From positions 1 to 27,440 of the IMG/VR virus record IMGVR_UViG_3300020220_000264: a DNA stretch of 27,440 bases; one strand, written 5' to 3'. Below are positions 12,001 through 26,767 of this stretch, piece by piece. The notes below the pieces were generated by a model, which worked only from the letters and a program-made list of their open reading frames with translations, was not told where the DNA came from and did not search any database. Both the position numbers and the translations under genes were made by a program. The DNA is from a virus. Each line of letters begins with the position of its first letter. Position 1 is the first letter of the stretch.

Positions 12001-12918
12001 TGGGAACTGAAACAGTCTGACTCCAACTAAACTACTTTCCATACCTGTAACAAATGTCCAACCTTCTCCGATTGAACCAATTGCAGGCACATCGCCAGGA
12101 GCAGTTGTCCATTCAGTTTCTACTGAATCACTTTCGGTTGAAACTCCAAGTACTGTGCTTTGTAGTCTAGCCTTTCGCTTCAGTGCGATAGTCTGCGCCG
12201 ATGCCATGATAAACGCACCGTCAATGTAATAGATGCCGTCTTGGTTCGATATTAGAGTTGCTTTTCCGAAAGTAGCAACTTTATCTACACTTTCGTTTGA
12301 ATACTTGATCTGACATCGAATATCAGTTGCAATCTCTTGATTGCTTTCGTCAACCACAGTAACCACCGACAATGTGGAGGGAGCGCCTGTAACTTGTTTG
12401 TATAGGTCTTTCAGATTTGTGATGCTTCTGTTTTCGCCTGTATTTGGATCTGTCACCGTGACAGAATTTTGATACTCGACAAACAGAACATGGTATGGGT
12501 CTGGATCTGTCGGTGCCACCGCCTCCGACGCTTCCACATGAAGAACTTTCATGCGAAGTTGCGGAACTGTAGATCCTGATGAAACATCATTGACGATGAT
12601 TTTTCCAACAAACTGAGAGGGAGTAACTGTTACTTGTCCCTGCGTGCCATCGGCTGTTGTTCCTGTGACCGCAGTTTCGATGCGGATGAAACTGCAATCC
12701 ACCGCACCCAACTGTCCATCGACAACTGGACTTCCATCCTTAAAGATGTGATTGGCAAATCTACTGATTTGCTTTTGCAAGACCGTTTGTAGTTGAGTTA
12801 GTTCTCGGGCCTGTAATGCATAGCCAGGCTTGAACAGCATCTTGATGAATTTCTTGCTGTCCTGATAGTCGTCGTAGTACGGGAAGCCTGCGAATTGTGT
12901 TGGTTCGATCTCTGCCAT
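6100..12918 (-). CDS. Giant DUF4815-like baseplate/tail structural protein (2272 aa)
   Basis: The N-terminus (FPYYDDYQDSKKFIKMLFKPG, then ARELTQLQTVLQKQISRF, residues about 12-55) matches the DUF4815-type start of a large virion protein of T4-like cyanophages. Further family-like segments include FYDHAKIVI (about 1154), YEDIPLYTS (about 1224), KLEKRIERVEYYTTL then VDNFKGH (about 1393-1450), SDTWIDTN and FGTQWNDWETSWTG (about 1540-1570), and WRDPLAQTFLVD (about 1806). The C-terminus ends in receptor-like beta-rich sequence. The AAAGGA ribosome site overlaps the gp8 stop. It appears longer than homologues I recall, with an extra unrecognised stretch around 845-1150 that includes an acidic patch (WDSWDEDDDG). 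Role inferred: peripheral baseplate protein linking wedges to fibres. Family confidence is good. The function of individual domains is unknown. Confidence 0.92.
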   Translation of the reverse strand: MAEIEPTQFAGFPYYDDYQDSKKFIKMLFKPGYALQARELTQLQTVLQKQISRFANHIFKDGSPVVDGQLGAVDCSFIRIETAVTGTTADGTQGQVTVTPSQFVGKIIVNDVSSGSTVPQLRMKVLHVEASEAVAPTDPDPYHVLFVEYQNSVTVTDPNTGENRSITNLKDLYKQVTGAPSTLSVVTVVDESNQEIATDIRCQIKYSNESVDKVATFGKATLISNQDGIYYIDGAFIMASAQTIALKRKARLQSTVLGVSTESDSVETEWTTAPGDVPAIGSIGEGWTFVTGMESSLVGVRLFQFPSCRVGFTIKREVIDADTDRTLLDPAYGSYNYAAPGADRYKVDLVLDQLAFTNQDTLADADQYKTTNFVELTRVVDGTIRYSVKYPIYSDLEETLARRTYDESGSYTVKPFEIDIEEYFNDEKVCVLRETVREIQGSANSTPFSVRNESGTSEVSDGFPANISIYGYRNDALVWKGIVSNADTFLSRQGEVDFRAEGYGTTLMHMIFGTPLEGDIMVSESYSKSNNSNLFFLKSEIPVTGDVFNLLYTKGDGVPRKVLSQQGENPQDYLAVFPHVSTYSDDRFNGKYTLGRLHPEWAADAEDPSSETVVDAIEDAKSKLIVGVGTGKAYIYGYEFENQNTKFIPIEKARESEAVVGEEINLLLGNYVICEPPLTGDTSAPSTLKLPSWSSHPKVELWNQLSPDATTGNENGNTLIGTARIRGVTPNEGKVNVHLCDIQIKDGSYFADFDHIRFRYENREDTVVTGDQIAGSIELFEISITGGPSGFGGTSFTQVERIVSGQTDPVLVEYYDTILFSPKANLAIFDLPSLCSLKQITEFAKTKYDCKKTFSKQLISSGTGAGPTFQANSSLVWRQYGSGSNLIWILSNQTSGVGIVANTADTSSNTLYTFKASSTVNSAFQARVNAALATNASYFEADNLDKIMVFSANTNKLLSVGAVSDANSPIKALVNSDKTVMYIVYAPTGGDTLGITTKPFHMETVVAAQTAGSANTTNFRKKTAAVISEYSGVTWDKYINEDGYFMLPLKNWEGIFQFNGDNSDDPWNVNFSPEGQNGWDSWDEDDDGSANNTNSFLSPTLPDEFVTSLGFSDVLSVEEVLVWDATNSEQNPTGKRDITKYFELINGVNDNFYDHAKIVIRKSALQNLKTQYPGIFKNKGEKLDYTLFIRFKFLKHSGAGPFTINSYEHNDHHPFFSRYEDIPLYTSPVYGYTYELRNCLDYRPSRENSTPARVATALADMNDFTTSDTNRPNALDEDCPLRDNSLIQESTGAFIARGARGDSETVLPALGSTGSRPAVTYDYFTSRRDKLVLLKNREFKIIAGKSAIRPESPKDVPESMSLYTLSLPQYTFGSEDVLVDYIDNRRFTMSDIAKLEKRIERVEYYTTLTLLEKEAAELSIPDPALGGAERIKNGIFVDNFKGHGVGDVFSPYYSCAMDFDKGHLRPRFSTRHIEFAPVPLIAGSQEFKISPDGVVTLFYDDTTPNRYIIQPVASRAISVNPFDIVSWLGSVSMVPSSDTWIDTNTKPAVTINLEGENDAWKGMKSAFGTQWNDWETSWTGVRASTTESLGEKSSSQFLDAPHTRRAPDGVMRRRQQTTTTRTSLVTETVDRRQTREGIKTSITPQRVTKELGDRIVDVSVVPYIRSKKITITGKSLKPNTILYAFFDNTSVNKYCEFDGQPVTPSNPIKTNSAGEVEVVFNLPGGVFKTGERQFRLTDSTTNDLPRSNTSADASYFAQGMLQTKENTIVSTRVPVISRQTVTEDRVVRDAVTRVQTDSTSSITWRDPLAQTFLVDVAKNPKGVWVHSIDLFIKNAPSGESAPPIRVQIRPTVNGYPHSSMVLPFAEASLNASEVNLAIGSGDGEVPSVDDPDTYTRFKFSTPVYLIPGEYAIVIMSNSAEYECYIAEMGEVAIGTEGTRITQQPYAGVFFKSQNASTWSADQNTDLMFAINTCKFVTSDTPLEVSFAPVTGQYGFENEEDPFEVDAMKVVAQLLKFDNSTVNAKLALTNDNGLVQEFDIPLNENFAPRPVAFQLDKSSRLKLQFTNSDVNVSPCIDSERLSAILIDNIIGSPTPQSSNWEVEYKARPPYDVDEVDSNGNLVYPVSRYISRRVDLISGLECDDLKVYLSANLPNFTYVNGSSQNTEIKTAIEVWAKVQTGDSDVPFDDLNWMRMDVNPLQATQIATDEVTFTEYAFTMPEFFYPSPSAAKTGYSKAEQQFAVPFTRYSIKIVMFSNNGTIVPKVKDLRVIAVV

Positions 12919-24067: not shown

Positions 24068-25408
24068 TTATGGTGCAGGTCCACTCAATAACAATGCTGA
24101 GATTTCAGTTGGTAATCCACTCTGTATGGTAGAGTAGTTCTTGCACAGATTTTGTTGTGCTGCTCTCCAATCTGATTCTTTACCTGTGTTTGCTGCTTTC
24201 AGGAATAGGTTTGCAAACTCAAGATATGGTTTATTGAAGTTAAGCATATGACTATCTGCGATTGCTTCTTCTGCTTCTTGCTTTCCGAATTTTATATTTC
24301 TAACCATCGGATCGACATACTTCTTGGATTGCAAAAGTCTCATGGGAAGTTCCCGCTTGCTACACGGCACAGATGCAATGTACTTGATGCTTGGAATCAC
24401 TCCGGTAGCAACCACTTCTTTCATAGATTGTAGTTGCAACATCCACGGTTTAACCAGAGACTTTGATTTGGCAAATAAACCCGCAGACTCTTCATACAAA
24501 CTATCATCTGCTCGTTCAGTATCGTCACTTCTACGAGCCTTGACTCGTCTACTAACGATAGTTCGCAGTTGTCCTTTTAGAGCATTCCATGAGCCGGGAT
24601 ACATGGAAAGCATGGTTTCCAATGTTCCGTATCCACCCTCAATACTATTTCCGGCAGAATCAGTTTCTACTGCGTAATAGATGTCATCTTGTTCATCTAG
24701 CCAGAACTGCACAAGCGATCCATGTGGAGTTTCGATGTGTCCAACTTCTACAAGACTTTCTGGCGTGTGTTCTACGCTTTCCTTTACACTCATTCCTTTA
24801 CGAAGTTGTTTGAACAGGGACTCTGCATCTGACTTGGAAACTCCATCAGGAATGCCACCCATGAATGCTTTCAGATTGTTTTCATAGGCAGCACCGCGCA
24901 TCTTGCTTGCAGACATACCTACAACGCCTTCGGCATCGGGATCGCGCTCACCGGCGCTAACCACTTCAAACTCGAATGAGTATCGCTTATCAGGATCTTT
25001 GTGTGTGAGATATGGTTTGATCACTTTACGCATCTCTTCCACACGATCTCCACCCACAACCATGATGACCTTTTTGACTCCTTCAGAATCAAACTTGGTC
25101 ATTGCATCAAACATGGTGATGACTCCTGAATCATCTACAACCTTTACTTTGTCACCAAAGAACTTGCGTAACCACTTGATCTTTACGCCAGAAGTTAGCG
25201 GATTCTTCTTCGGATCGTTGGTGCGAGAAGGATACAGGAGTGCAACTCCTCCTACTTTAGACGCTGTGCTTTGTAGAGCGTCCACTAATTTTTGATGCCC
25301 AGAGGTGGGGGGTTGAAAACGACCGAAAGTGAATACGACAGTTTTGCCTTTCAACGCTTCGTTGAGGGCATCACCGTCGCTCTTAGCCTTCCAATCGTCG
25401 TACTTCAT
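24068..25408 (-). CDS. Cytidylyltransferase-like nucleotidyltransferase with unknown C-terminal domain (446 aa)
   Basis: Residues about 22-175 form an HxGH-superfamily nucleotidyltransferase (NMN adenylyltransferase / cytidylyltransferase fold): VVFTFGRFQPPTSGHQKLVD with the T-S-G-H nucleotide site at 35-38, MVVGGDRVEEMRK (116-128) and GMSASKMR (164-171), equivalent to the ISTSxxR motif. These enzymes transfer an NMP to a phosphorylated substrate, as in NAD or lipid/sugar head-group synthesis. The substrate here cannot be told. Residues about 218-446 are an additional domain with no recognised family. Such proteins occur beside tail genes in T4-like aquatic phages. The leader directly before the ATG is an exact 16-base complement of the 16S rRNA 3' end. 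Confidence 0.88.
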   Translation of the reverse strand: MKYDDWKAKSDGDALNEALKGKTVVFTFGRFQPPTSGHQKLVDALQSTASKVGGVALLYPSRTNDPKKNPLTSGVKIKWLRKFFGDKVKVVDDSGVITMFDAMTKFDSEGVKKVIMVVGGDRVEEMRKVIKPYLTHKDPDKRYSFEFEVVSAGERDPDAEGVVGMSASKMRGAAYENNLKAFMGGIPDGVSKSDAESLFKQLRKGMSVKESVEHTPESLVEVGHIETPHGSLVQFWLDEQDDIYYAVETDSAGNSIEGGYGTLETMLSMYPGSWNALKGQLRTIVSRRVKARRSDDTERADDSLYEESAGLFAKSKSLVKPWMLQLQSMKEVVATGVIPSIKYIASVPCSKRELPMRLLQSKKYVDPMVRNIKFGKQEAEEAIADSHMLNFNKPYLEFANLFLKAANTGKESDWRAAQQNLCKNYSTIQSGLPTEISALLLSGPAP

Positions 25409-25424
25409 GGCTGGATCACCTCCT
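25409..25424 (-). promoter_or_regulatory. Ultra-long Shine-Dalgarno / 16S rRNA 3'-end antisense
   Basis: The transcribed strand reads AGGAGGTGATCCAGCC immediately before the ATG of the nucleotidyltransferase gene. Its complement, GGCTGGATCACCTCCT, is from memory the conserved 3' terminus of 16S rRNA in most bacteria, the site of the universal 1525R-type primers. Ordinary ribosome sites match 4-7 bases. The AGGAGG core is 10 bases from the ATG, slightly far. If the other 10 bases also paired they would reach the start codon. Confidence 0.85.
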
Positions 25425-25453
25425 ACCCCCTACCTCAGAGGGCAGTCAAATGA

Positions 25454-25576
25454 TTACTTATTCCAAGGTAACTTCTTGGAAACCCAATCCCAAAGTGGTT
25501 TGCCAATGAATGCACCGGCAACGAATACCAATACGGTATAGAAAAGTGTACCTAACGCGCTATGAATTGCTTCCAT
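25454..25576 (-). CDS. Small single-span membrane protein (40 aa)
   Basis: The ORF has a strong ribosome site (AAAGGAG, 7 bases before the ATG at 25576) and a TAA stop. The protein has a short polar N-terminus (MEAIHSA), one hydrophobic segment at about residues 8-25 (LGTLFYTVLVFVAGAFIG) and a basic, Trp-containing C-terminal tail (KPLWDWVSKKLPWNK). The positive tail suggests it stays in the cytoplasm. It lies between the ligase-like and nucleotidyltransferase genes. It could be a membrane anchor, a holin-like or superinfection-related peptide, or a virion membrane-contact factor. None of these is shown by the sequence. Confidence 0.72.
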   Translation of the reverse strand: MEAIHSALGTLFYTVLVFVAGAFIGKPLWDWVSKKLPWNK

Positions 25577-25615: not shown

Positions 25616-26767
25616 TCACGACCAATTTTTCACGGCAGTAAAGTTCTGTCGTGAGAACTCTAGACGGTCTACCAGTTTATAGACCCCCTTTGCAGCAACT
25701 GCTACAAATCCTTCAGGATTCGCAACTCGGAATCCACTATCTGTTGGGTAGAACGCACCAATGGTCTTGACCTGACTCATCTTTGCCACTATCAGATTCT
25801 TGGCAACTGCAATGCGTTTGTGCAGATCGAACGCTCTCTTCAGTCCAGTTGCATTAGAGCGAATGCGCTGTGCCAATGCTTGATCTGGCTTGGGTTGTCC
25901 CAACACAAACTTGATGAGTGCAGGAACTGATCCCTGATCCACTCCTGCACGAATGCTACTGTTGAAATACCTAGTAACCACATCCTTTATATCAGAGTCT
26001 TTCTGAATGGTTTGCAGCGCACCTATAACATCTTTATCTGTCTTGAACACAAGAATATCTGCCAGCAGTTTTTCTAACTGTTTGGTTTCTGCTGCGGTCA
26101 TGCTTGCAACTCCTGTTGCATCTACAAACGATGCGTCTTCAATCCATGCTTTAGAATTACCTCTCAGATTAGAGATATTTGGATTGAAGGATGCGCTGAG
26201 AGACTGAAAGGTTTTTCCCTTGTATACCGTATGAAACACGATTCCGATTTGCGCTTTGGTGATACGCTTTCCAAGATCACTCTTGGTAGGAACCGCATAC
26301 ATGATGGTGTTTGGTTGAAAGGTATAGTAGTTCTCTCCATCAATGTTCTGTGTCTTTATATCGCCTGGAGTGAACATCAAGTCGCCCTGTAGAATACCTT
26401 GAATTCCCACACCTCTCAGAGCATCGAAAGCAGCGTGTAGTTTGGTAGCAACCCCCGAACCTCCATGATTGGTGTCGATATCTGCGTGTGAGTAATTTAC
26501 CTTTGGTGTTTTGTTGAACACACTCTTGGTTCCCACAAAGAACTTTTTGGTTTGCGGATCTTCACCACAGACGACCGCCGGCGCACCATCCCATTTCACA
26601 GAAACAAATGCACCACCCTTGGCATCTCCGCGTAAAGTCTTGATCACATCATTCACTACAGAAACAGCAAGATCAATACCCTTGATTCCACTCAAGAAGA
26701 TTGCGTCTTCCAAGTGTTCCAAGTGGGTGTTCTTAGATTCTGAGATGAACGATAGGAATGATTTCAT
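25616..26767 (-). CDS. DNA/RNA-ligase-like nucleotidyltransferase-fold protein (383 aa)
   Basis: Residues 56-64 (SVKWDGAPA) match ligase motif I (KxDG), with K58 as candidate nucleotide-accepting lysine. GDLMF (128-132) fits a motif III-like strand, PEGFVAV (351-357) motif IV (EGxV) and VYKLVDRL (362-369) motif V (KxV). Motif spacing is irregular: a helical region (about 225-335) lies between the III-like and IV-like parts, so the fold assignment is inference. Similar proteins of uncharacterised function (possibly Pfam DUF6267) are encoded near tail genes in T4-like aquatic phages. It could be an RNA end-joining or capping-type enzyme or a non-catalytic derivative. The start overlaps the upstream stop as ATGA with no clear ribosome site, indicating coupling to the coiled-coil gene. 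Confidence 0.82.
   Translation of the reverse strand: MKSFLSFISESKNTHLEHLEDAIFLSGIKGIDLAVSVVNDVIKTLRGDAKGGAFVSVKWDGAPAVVCGEDPQTKKFFVGTKSVFNKTPKVNYSHADIDTNHGGSGVATKLHAAFDALRGVGIQGILQGDLMFTPGDIKTQNIDGENYYTFQPNTIMYAVPTKSDLGKRITKAQIGIVFHTVYKGKTFQSLSASFNPNISNLRGNSKAWIEDASFVDATGVASMTAAETKQLEKLLADILVFKTDKDVIGALQTIQKDSDIKDVVTRYFNSSIRAGVDQGSVPALIKFVLGQPKPDQALAQRIRSNATGLKRAFDLHKRIAVAKNLIVAKMSQVKTIGAFYPTDSGFRVANPEGFVAVAAKGVYKLVDRLEFSRQNFTAVKNWS

Follow-up and report, generated by a model that had tools for sequence, protein, structure and literature searches.

The stretch of DNA analyzed here (the window, 27,440 nucleotides in length) is, by domain and family annotation, a fragment of a T4-like virus that carries baseplate genes; the virus record extends no further than the window. 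The genes and signals of interest are all read from its minus strand:

25616 to 26767, minus strand: gene for a DUF6267 protein (PF19782), the upstream neighbour of NT
25454 to 25576, minus strand: small membrane-type ORF of 40 amino acids (MEAIHSALGTLFYTVLVFVAGAFIGKPLWDWVSKKLPWNK); its stop codon and the 5' arm of the stem P1 (described below) are separated by a few bases
25409 to 25424, minus strand: extended Shine-Dalgarno (SD) sequence AGGAGGTGATCCAGCC, the complement of the 16S rRNA 3' end, abutting the NT ATG
25406 to 25408, minus strand: NT start codon ATG, directly abutting the extended SD
24068 to 25408, minus strand: nucleotidyltransferase (NT) gene, 446 amino acids (CTP_transf_like, PF01467; PHROG 3041/395, 'cytidyltransferase')

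The DUF6267 gene (25616-26767) and NT (24068-25408) are separate here and match different parts of phrog_455; because both match this one long family, some phages seem to make the two as a single protein. The small ORF has no significant Pfam match, and no cultured relatives that carry it were found; in related phages, the RNA element described below is found beside it. (One contig, L149, has a second small ORF of the PLWxx..PWNK type on its opposite strand, at 12605-12712, minus.)

An extended Shine-Dalgarno sequence

The plus strand at 25409-25424 reads GGCTGGATCACCTCCT; the NT mRNA, which corresponds to the minus strand, reads AGGAGGUGAUCCAGCC followed by AUG at 25408-25406. The original prediction, that the NT start codon is abutted by a 16-base leader antisense to the 3' end of 16S rRNA, can be read directly from these letters: AGGAGGTGATCCAGCC is complementary at 16 of 16 positions to the canonical 16S end (...GGCUGGAUCACCUCCU), from which the 16S end of the host may differ. 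Since the base that follows the 16-base match is a T, the terminal bases of the 16S tail are unmatched. By E. coli 16S numbering, the free tail would presumably accommodate 12 of these bases, and helix 45 would have to open before the final AGCC could pair. As in other SD sequences, the complementarity lies just upstream of the start, with GGAGG ending 10 nt before the ATG.

The site had also been thought improbable by chance and well beyond an ordinary SD, and the numbers agree. About 1e-5 exact occurrences of the 16-mer are expected in the window, and even when up to 3 mismatches are allowed (0.16 expected at that tolerance) this is its sole match. Complementarity to the 16S tail extends over all 16 bases here and over 3-6 bases at the remaining 17 starts of the window; the corresponding pairing energies are -24.3 kcal/mol for NT with the free tail (-33.8 with a longer tail) vs. 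about -1 to -11 kcal/mol for the other starts.

Among 2.9 million viral contigs, the 16-mer followed by ATG occurs solely before orthologues of the NT gene. The sequence GGAGGTGATCCAGCC-ATG is identical in the close orthologues (64-91% protein identity), with the exception of L022, in which the box reads GGAAATGATCCAGCC, and it is also unchanged in L028, at 47% protein identity. Since L001 and L028 share just 42% identity at four-fold sites, drift would not be expected to leave 15 bases unchanged. Related phages might instead have shown an ordinary 5-7 base site with freely drifting flanks; what is found is that GGAGGTGATCCAGCC is fixed, and it is the bases directly 5' of the box that differ among orthologues (TA, CAC, TAT, GTG, TAC). 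This identity in all close orthologues but one supports the earlier suggestion of a ribosome-capture site, which would then be a conserved one. Farther away, relatives retain just GGAGGTGATC(C) and their spacers are free; the part that recurs in them is GGAGGTGAT(C)(C), 9-11 bases with differing spacers. Conservation across lineages thus covers 9-11 bases (up to 14 in a class of terminator-ended relatives, below), and the additional CAGCC is a trait of the window clade.

The association can also be seen when the motif is not used to find the loci. Using a DNA pattern for the small ORF (..PLWxW.....PWNK stop) that makes no reference to the motif, GGAGGTG[A/G]T was present in the gap at 11/11 loci in which the small ORF is followed by NT after at least 25 nt, and at 0/8 loci in which NT follows the small ORF directly; where the small ORF was found without a recognised NT, the motif was present in 1 of about 39 loci (L194). 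Elsewhere, a 13-base SD, AGGAGGTGATCCAAA-ATG, lies before genes beginning MASSYRNIHPVDEIL in L285, L315, L331, L340, L362, and L380.

A long-range stem that includes the active-site codons

Upstream of the SD, the leader is able to pair with the coding sequence of the gene that it precedes, and two stems, P1 and P2, can be assigned:

25425 to 25450, minus strand: 5' arm of P1 (TTTGACTGCCCTCTGAGGTAGGGGGT), an imperfect reverse complement of NT codons 32-39
25388 to 25399, minus strand: 5' strand of P2, codons 4-7, paired with codons 27-31
25318 to 25329, minus strand: 3' strand of P2, codons 27-31, with nearly no synonymous change in the clade
25291 to 25313, minus strand: 3' arm of P1 (ACCCCCCACCTCTGGGCATCAAA), the NT codons of the catalytic PPTSGH motif, with high synonymous conservation

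In the window, 25450-25425 pairs with 25313-25291; an alternative fold of the 5' arm (25425-25450) into a local hairpin is possible. P1 was not found by an ungapped inverted-repeat search because of its bulges. At loci joined to NT, the leader that immediately precedes the SD is antisense to the RF(Q/N)PPT(S/A)GH (HxGH) codons located about 100 nt downstream, with 24 consecutive leader:codon pairs in L233, and leader and HxGH codons change together in about 28 distinct relatives. The duplex formed by each leader with its own codons has a mean energy of -38.8 kcal/mol (30 loci) vs. -25.7 kcal/mol when partners are permuted between phages; none of 10,000 permutations reached the mean of the true pairs, the best being -30.7. 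This permutation across lineages addresses base composition. When the register was set from the first and second codon positions only, third positions were paired in 76% of cases with the leader's own codons vs. 49% in cross comparisons, a value again reached by 0/10,000 permutations. All 21 of the leader-bearing loci tested fell below -30 kcal/mol, 20 of them with z < -3, and pairing at z < -3 was seen in 0/34 NT genes that lack the leader (from cyanophages, other phages without the small ORF, and phages in which NT directly follows the small ORF); the sequences used in these pairing tests are related, and the counts are not of independent events. Isolated cyanophage NT genes have neither the small ORF nor the arm. 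Within the window clade, synonymous identity along the NT gene is highest at codons 22-38.

When the pairs are tabulated across the clade, P1 and P2 are retained; retention is inconsistent at the outermost pairs of P1 and in the inner helices. One P1 pair varies as U-A, C-G, and U-G, and in L028 a U-G pair of P2 has become C-G. Comparison of related sequences thus shows an SD that is conserved, a P1 that co-varies, and a P2 that is conserved, and it indicates that a conserved RNA element lies at the NT start, larger than the 16-mer that was noticed first.

The RNA from 25455 to 25285 has a predicted energy of -74 kcal/mol vs. -46.7 +/- 4.2 for dinucleotide shuffles (z -6.56, 0/200). Its predicted fold is a rod in which P1 joins the leader to codons 32-39, P2 joins codons 4-7 to codons 27-31, and further helices lie inside; the SD and the AUG are found mainly within a large bulge that separates P1 from P2. 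Of the 18 starts in the window, that of NT has the strongest SD, the lowest folding energy (-86 vs. -54 +/- 8), and the highest opening cost (18.7 vs. a mean of 10.7). On average, opening cost 14.5 kcal/mol when the native arm was present, 13.9 when the arm was scrambled, 11.1 for nascent RNA, and 11.3 when there was no arm. The nearly equal values for the native and scrambled arms do not support the idea that P1 simply sequesters the SD; because P1 changes the opening cost so little, any effect that it has must be steric or kinetic.

Two observations from relatives may be added. In L022, an orthologue of 76% identity, the SD core and the antisense arm are eroded together (GGAAATGATCC; duplex -19 kcal/mol), and the NT gene and CAGCC-ATG are retained. 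In L196, L211, L217, L224, L261, and L262, the small ORF is followed by a gene that starts like MIRFEKLRWKNLLSTGQYF (gp46-like by eye); the leaders of these gp46-like genes also pair with the beginning of the coding region, and the paired sequences vary (CTGTCCGGTAGGGAG / CTCTCTACCGGACAG; TGTCCCTGTAGAGAG / CTCTCTACAGGGCA).

Relatives with the motif and a terminator

In another set of relatives (L181, L193, L201, L205, L048/L049/L169, L127/L154/L166, L249, L259, and L273), a stem-loop that presents GGAGGTGRTCC or GGAGGTGATTC is located at the same place, and the motif has no start codon downstream of it at the distance usual for an SD. The order in these phages is the stem-loop, an intrinsic terminator, and then NT with a start of its own, often preceded by a late-promoter-like site, TATAAATA or TATACATA. 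The stem closes locally rather than with NT codons. In L201, L249, and L259 the stems differ by paired changes (CCACUGACUUUC/GAAAGUCAGUGG, CCACCGAUUUUC/GAAAAUCGGUGG, CCACUGGCUUC/GAAGCCAGUGG), yet GGAGGTGGTC is constant despite these changes. Matches of the start-less motifs to the free tail extend over about 11-14 bases (-21 to -26 kcal/mol; the 14-base match includes one G-U). These relatives suggest that displaying the 16S complement within a closed loop may serve a purpose in its own right. In L193, L201, L249, and L259, pairing is also available between the GGTGG of the motif and the CCAC(C) of the 5' arm, and the loop could switch between two folds.

Mechanism, known systems, and alternative explanations

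Taken together, these features look like an undescribed RNA element that controls ribosome loading. We consider it somewhat more probable than its denial that this is a cis-acting translation element, in which an over-strong SD loads the 30S subunit onto an unusually folded start. In this mechanism, the leader and the HxGH codons would form the long stem P1, and codons 4-7 and 27-31 would form P2; the SD, which matches nearly the whole of the free 16S tail, would dock the 30S subunit and in so doing pay for the unfolding of the start. We propose that the strength of the NT SD compensates for the fold of the start region, which is the most stable of the window and expensive to open; the coincidence of the strongest SD with the most stable fold fits an SD that has been strengthened for loading 30S subunits on a folded start. 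Translation of NT would then depend on 30S capture in competition with the fold of the mRNA. P1 would most likely matter either through a kinetic gate, in which the 30S subunit is captured on nascent RNA before the 3' arm has been made, or through a steric effect of P1 beside the SD. A ribosome that ends the small ORF, just a few bases before P1, might disturb the stem, and coupling to such a terminating ribosome is possible. Use of the site by 30S subunits, regulation of NT by the structure, and the trigger are what we infer from the comparisons above. Counting against the mechanism are the start-less relatives, whose retention of the motif would not be explained by an SD alone; L022, in which the NT gene persists although the SD core and a large part of the arm are gone; and the computed finding that P1 by itself would neither bury nor free the SD.

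Strong SDs and start-site hairpins are each known separately, and here they are joined in one element. In the Flavobacteriales, a lone very strong SD on rpsU senses ribosomes that lack bS21, the 16S tails being otherwise sequestered (PMC9976891). The NT element resembles rpsU in that a single start is exceptional (9-13 bp in rpsU) and other genes have little or no complementarity (PMC9976891), and within the window NT does stand alone, at -24.3 kcal/mol among 17 starts of -1 to -11. Unlike rpsU, the gene here is a phage nucleotidyltransferase rather than bS21, and its SD lies within a long-range hairpin. A sensor linked to bS21 was rejected, as the gene is a nucleotidyltransferase and no bS21 gene is present in ten related partial records. 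The 16S tail of Bacteroidia also differs (GGAACACC). Extended SD-aSD helices are common in Staphylococcus aureus, and there, as here, pairing runs past the GGAGG core toward the start codon (PMC13009471); however, in S. aureus this is genome-wide, whereas here it involves a single gene of the window, a far longer match, and a co-varying structure.

In T4, inhibitory hairpins are present at the start sites of e, soc, 49, and I-TevI, as well as at mobE of Aeh1 (PMC3014915). These share with the NT element a T4-like phage and intramolecular mRNA structure at a start region (PMC3014915), but they pair the SD or the AUG within a helix, whereas here a bulge or loop that separates two helices contains both, and the pairing partner is the gene's own active-site codons. 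The hallmark of e, soc, and 49, an SD or AUG in a stable helix, is absent from the NT start, and P1 adds little to the opening cost. A switch by a late promoter, as in T4, where a promoter within the hairpin yields late mRNA without the 5' arm, was rejected, there being no TATAAATA or TATACATA near 25400-25460. At T4 genes 38 and 25, a hairpin between SD and AUG shortens the spacing (PMC3014915); this is likewise RNA structure near an SD that is tied to initiation in a T4-like phage, but the SD of NT abuts the AUG and its stem links the upstream leader to downstream codons. The Stab-SD of Bacillus thuringiensis cry3 is an SD-like sequence without a start codon that binds 30S subunits. It resembles the start-less site of the terminator-ended relatives, but it lies at the 5' end of a stable mRNA and has neither a closing stem nor a terminator after it (PMC4113751); absence of a following start codon is seen only in those relatives and not in the window. 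An arm within active-site codons and a start-less version are features of none of the rpsU, S. aureus, and T4 systems compared. No description of the element was found in the literature searched, the coverage of which was partial, and no covariance model of Rfam 15 matched the window, or the place of the element in relatives.

The terminator-ended relatives are the basis for a different account, in which conservation acts on an RNA whose loop, closed by a stem, displays the 16S-tail complement and so holds or senses 30S subunits, its use as the SD of NT in the lineage of the window being secondary; an RNA of this kind could stabilize the transcript, titrate ribosomes, or sense free tails. Both the persistence of a GGAGGTGRTCC-like motif in a locally closed loop followed by a terminator and the compensatory stem changes in L201, L249, and L259 around a fixed GGAGGTGGTC favour this account, which we regard as a real but minor possibility: there are about 11 terminator-class examples vs. 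about 28 joined to an NT start, the next gene is nearly always NT, so that a tie to NT expression persists, and the motif is partly paired inside the loop in unconstrained folds. It is rather unlikely that all of these RNAs form a new phage family, capturing or sensing 30S subunits by means of a loop, closed by a stem, that is perfectly complementary to the free tail, and either ended by a terminator or joined to a gene; if they did, free ribosomes would gate the NT-joined gene or be titrated, and in the gene-joined form the stem would be closed by the gene's own active-site codons. Another possibility, that the SD is of the ordinary kind though very strong, giving high output, and that the stem serves RNase III processing or mRNA stability or is a DNA inverted repeat, draws on the small computed effect of P1 on SD access and on the occurrence of 13-base SDs (AGGAGGTGATCCANN-ATG) in front of further phage genes, a repeated MASSYRNIHPVDEIL family among them. 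(In a scan of viral contigs for 13-base SDs, 41/104 matches were leader-like vs. 20/100 for scrambled controls, among the matches listed.) The co-occurrence of SD and P1, the absence of the arm from leader-less NT genes, and the erosion of both SD and arm in L022 make this distinctly improbable.

T4-like phages also use mRNA operators bound by protein, and in T4 gp43 and gp32 act on their own mRNAs (PMC3014915). Such usage (PMC3014915), and the position of the start site in the bulge of a long rod, would suit an operator at which a phage RNA-binding protein, perhaps NT, recognises the rod and blocks initiation; we give this little credence, since the P1 sequence differs widely among lineages and the constant part is a 16S complement rather than a protein-specific loop. 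The retained CAGCC would be accounted for by a 4-codon upstream ORF, GTG ATC CAG CCA TGA (25419-25405, minus strand), which ends on the NT start through an ATGA overlap and could couple translation. This ORF is found in all members of the window clade (L022 reads ATG ATC CAG CCA TGA), but it is not retained in other lineages and shows no synonymous variation that would reveal coding constraint, making such coupling very improbable. A captured fragment of a 16S gene end, which had been raised as an explanation, or an artefact has nothing in its favour but the identity to the 16S end, and we take the 16-mer to resemble a universal 16S reverse primer. Both are refuted by the recurrence of the sequence at one orthologous place in many independent metagenome contigs with differing flanks. 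In addition, no other 16S sequence adjoins it, there is no Rfam rRNA match, and distant relatives keep only GGAGGTGATC(C) with free spacers; the probability left to this idea is negligible.

For the cis-acting translation element that we favour, the wider interest is that it recurs across many uncultured T4-like phage lineages, and that one arm lies in the codons of a catalytic motif, placing protein and RNA constraints on the same bases. The full 16-base, 10-base, eroded, and start-less versions constitute a natural series for testing how much 16S pairing is useful and for studying mRNA folding vs. 30S docking; if the start-less RNAs bind 30S subunits, they would represent a new type of phage RNA that acts on ribosomes. 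Two minor observations concern sequences beyond the element. A related virus contig, L125, carries a tmRNA at 1696-2033 and tRNAs at 71-144 and 493-566. Among 84,980 cellular genomes the 19-mer has two exact matches, about the number expected by chance, one of which is in Marinobacter segnicrescens (L518), where AGGAGGTGATCCAGCCATG, on the minus strand at 2252-2270, precedes an ORF that looks like TusB/DsrH.
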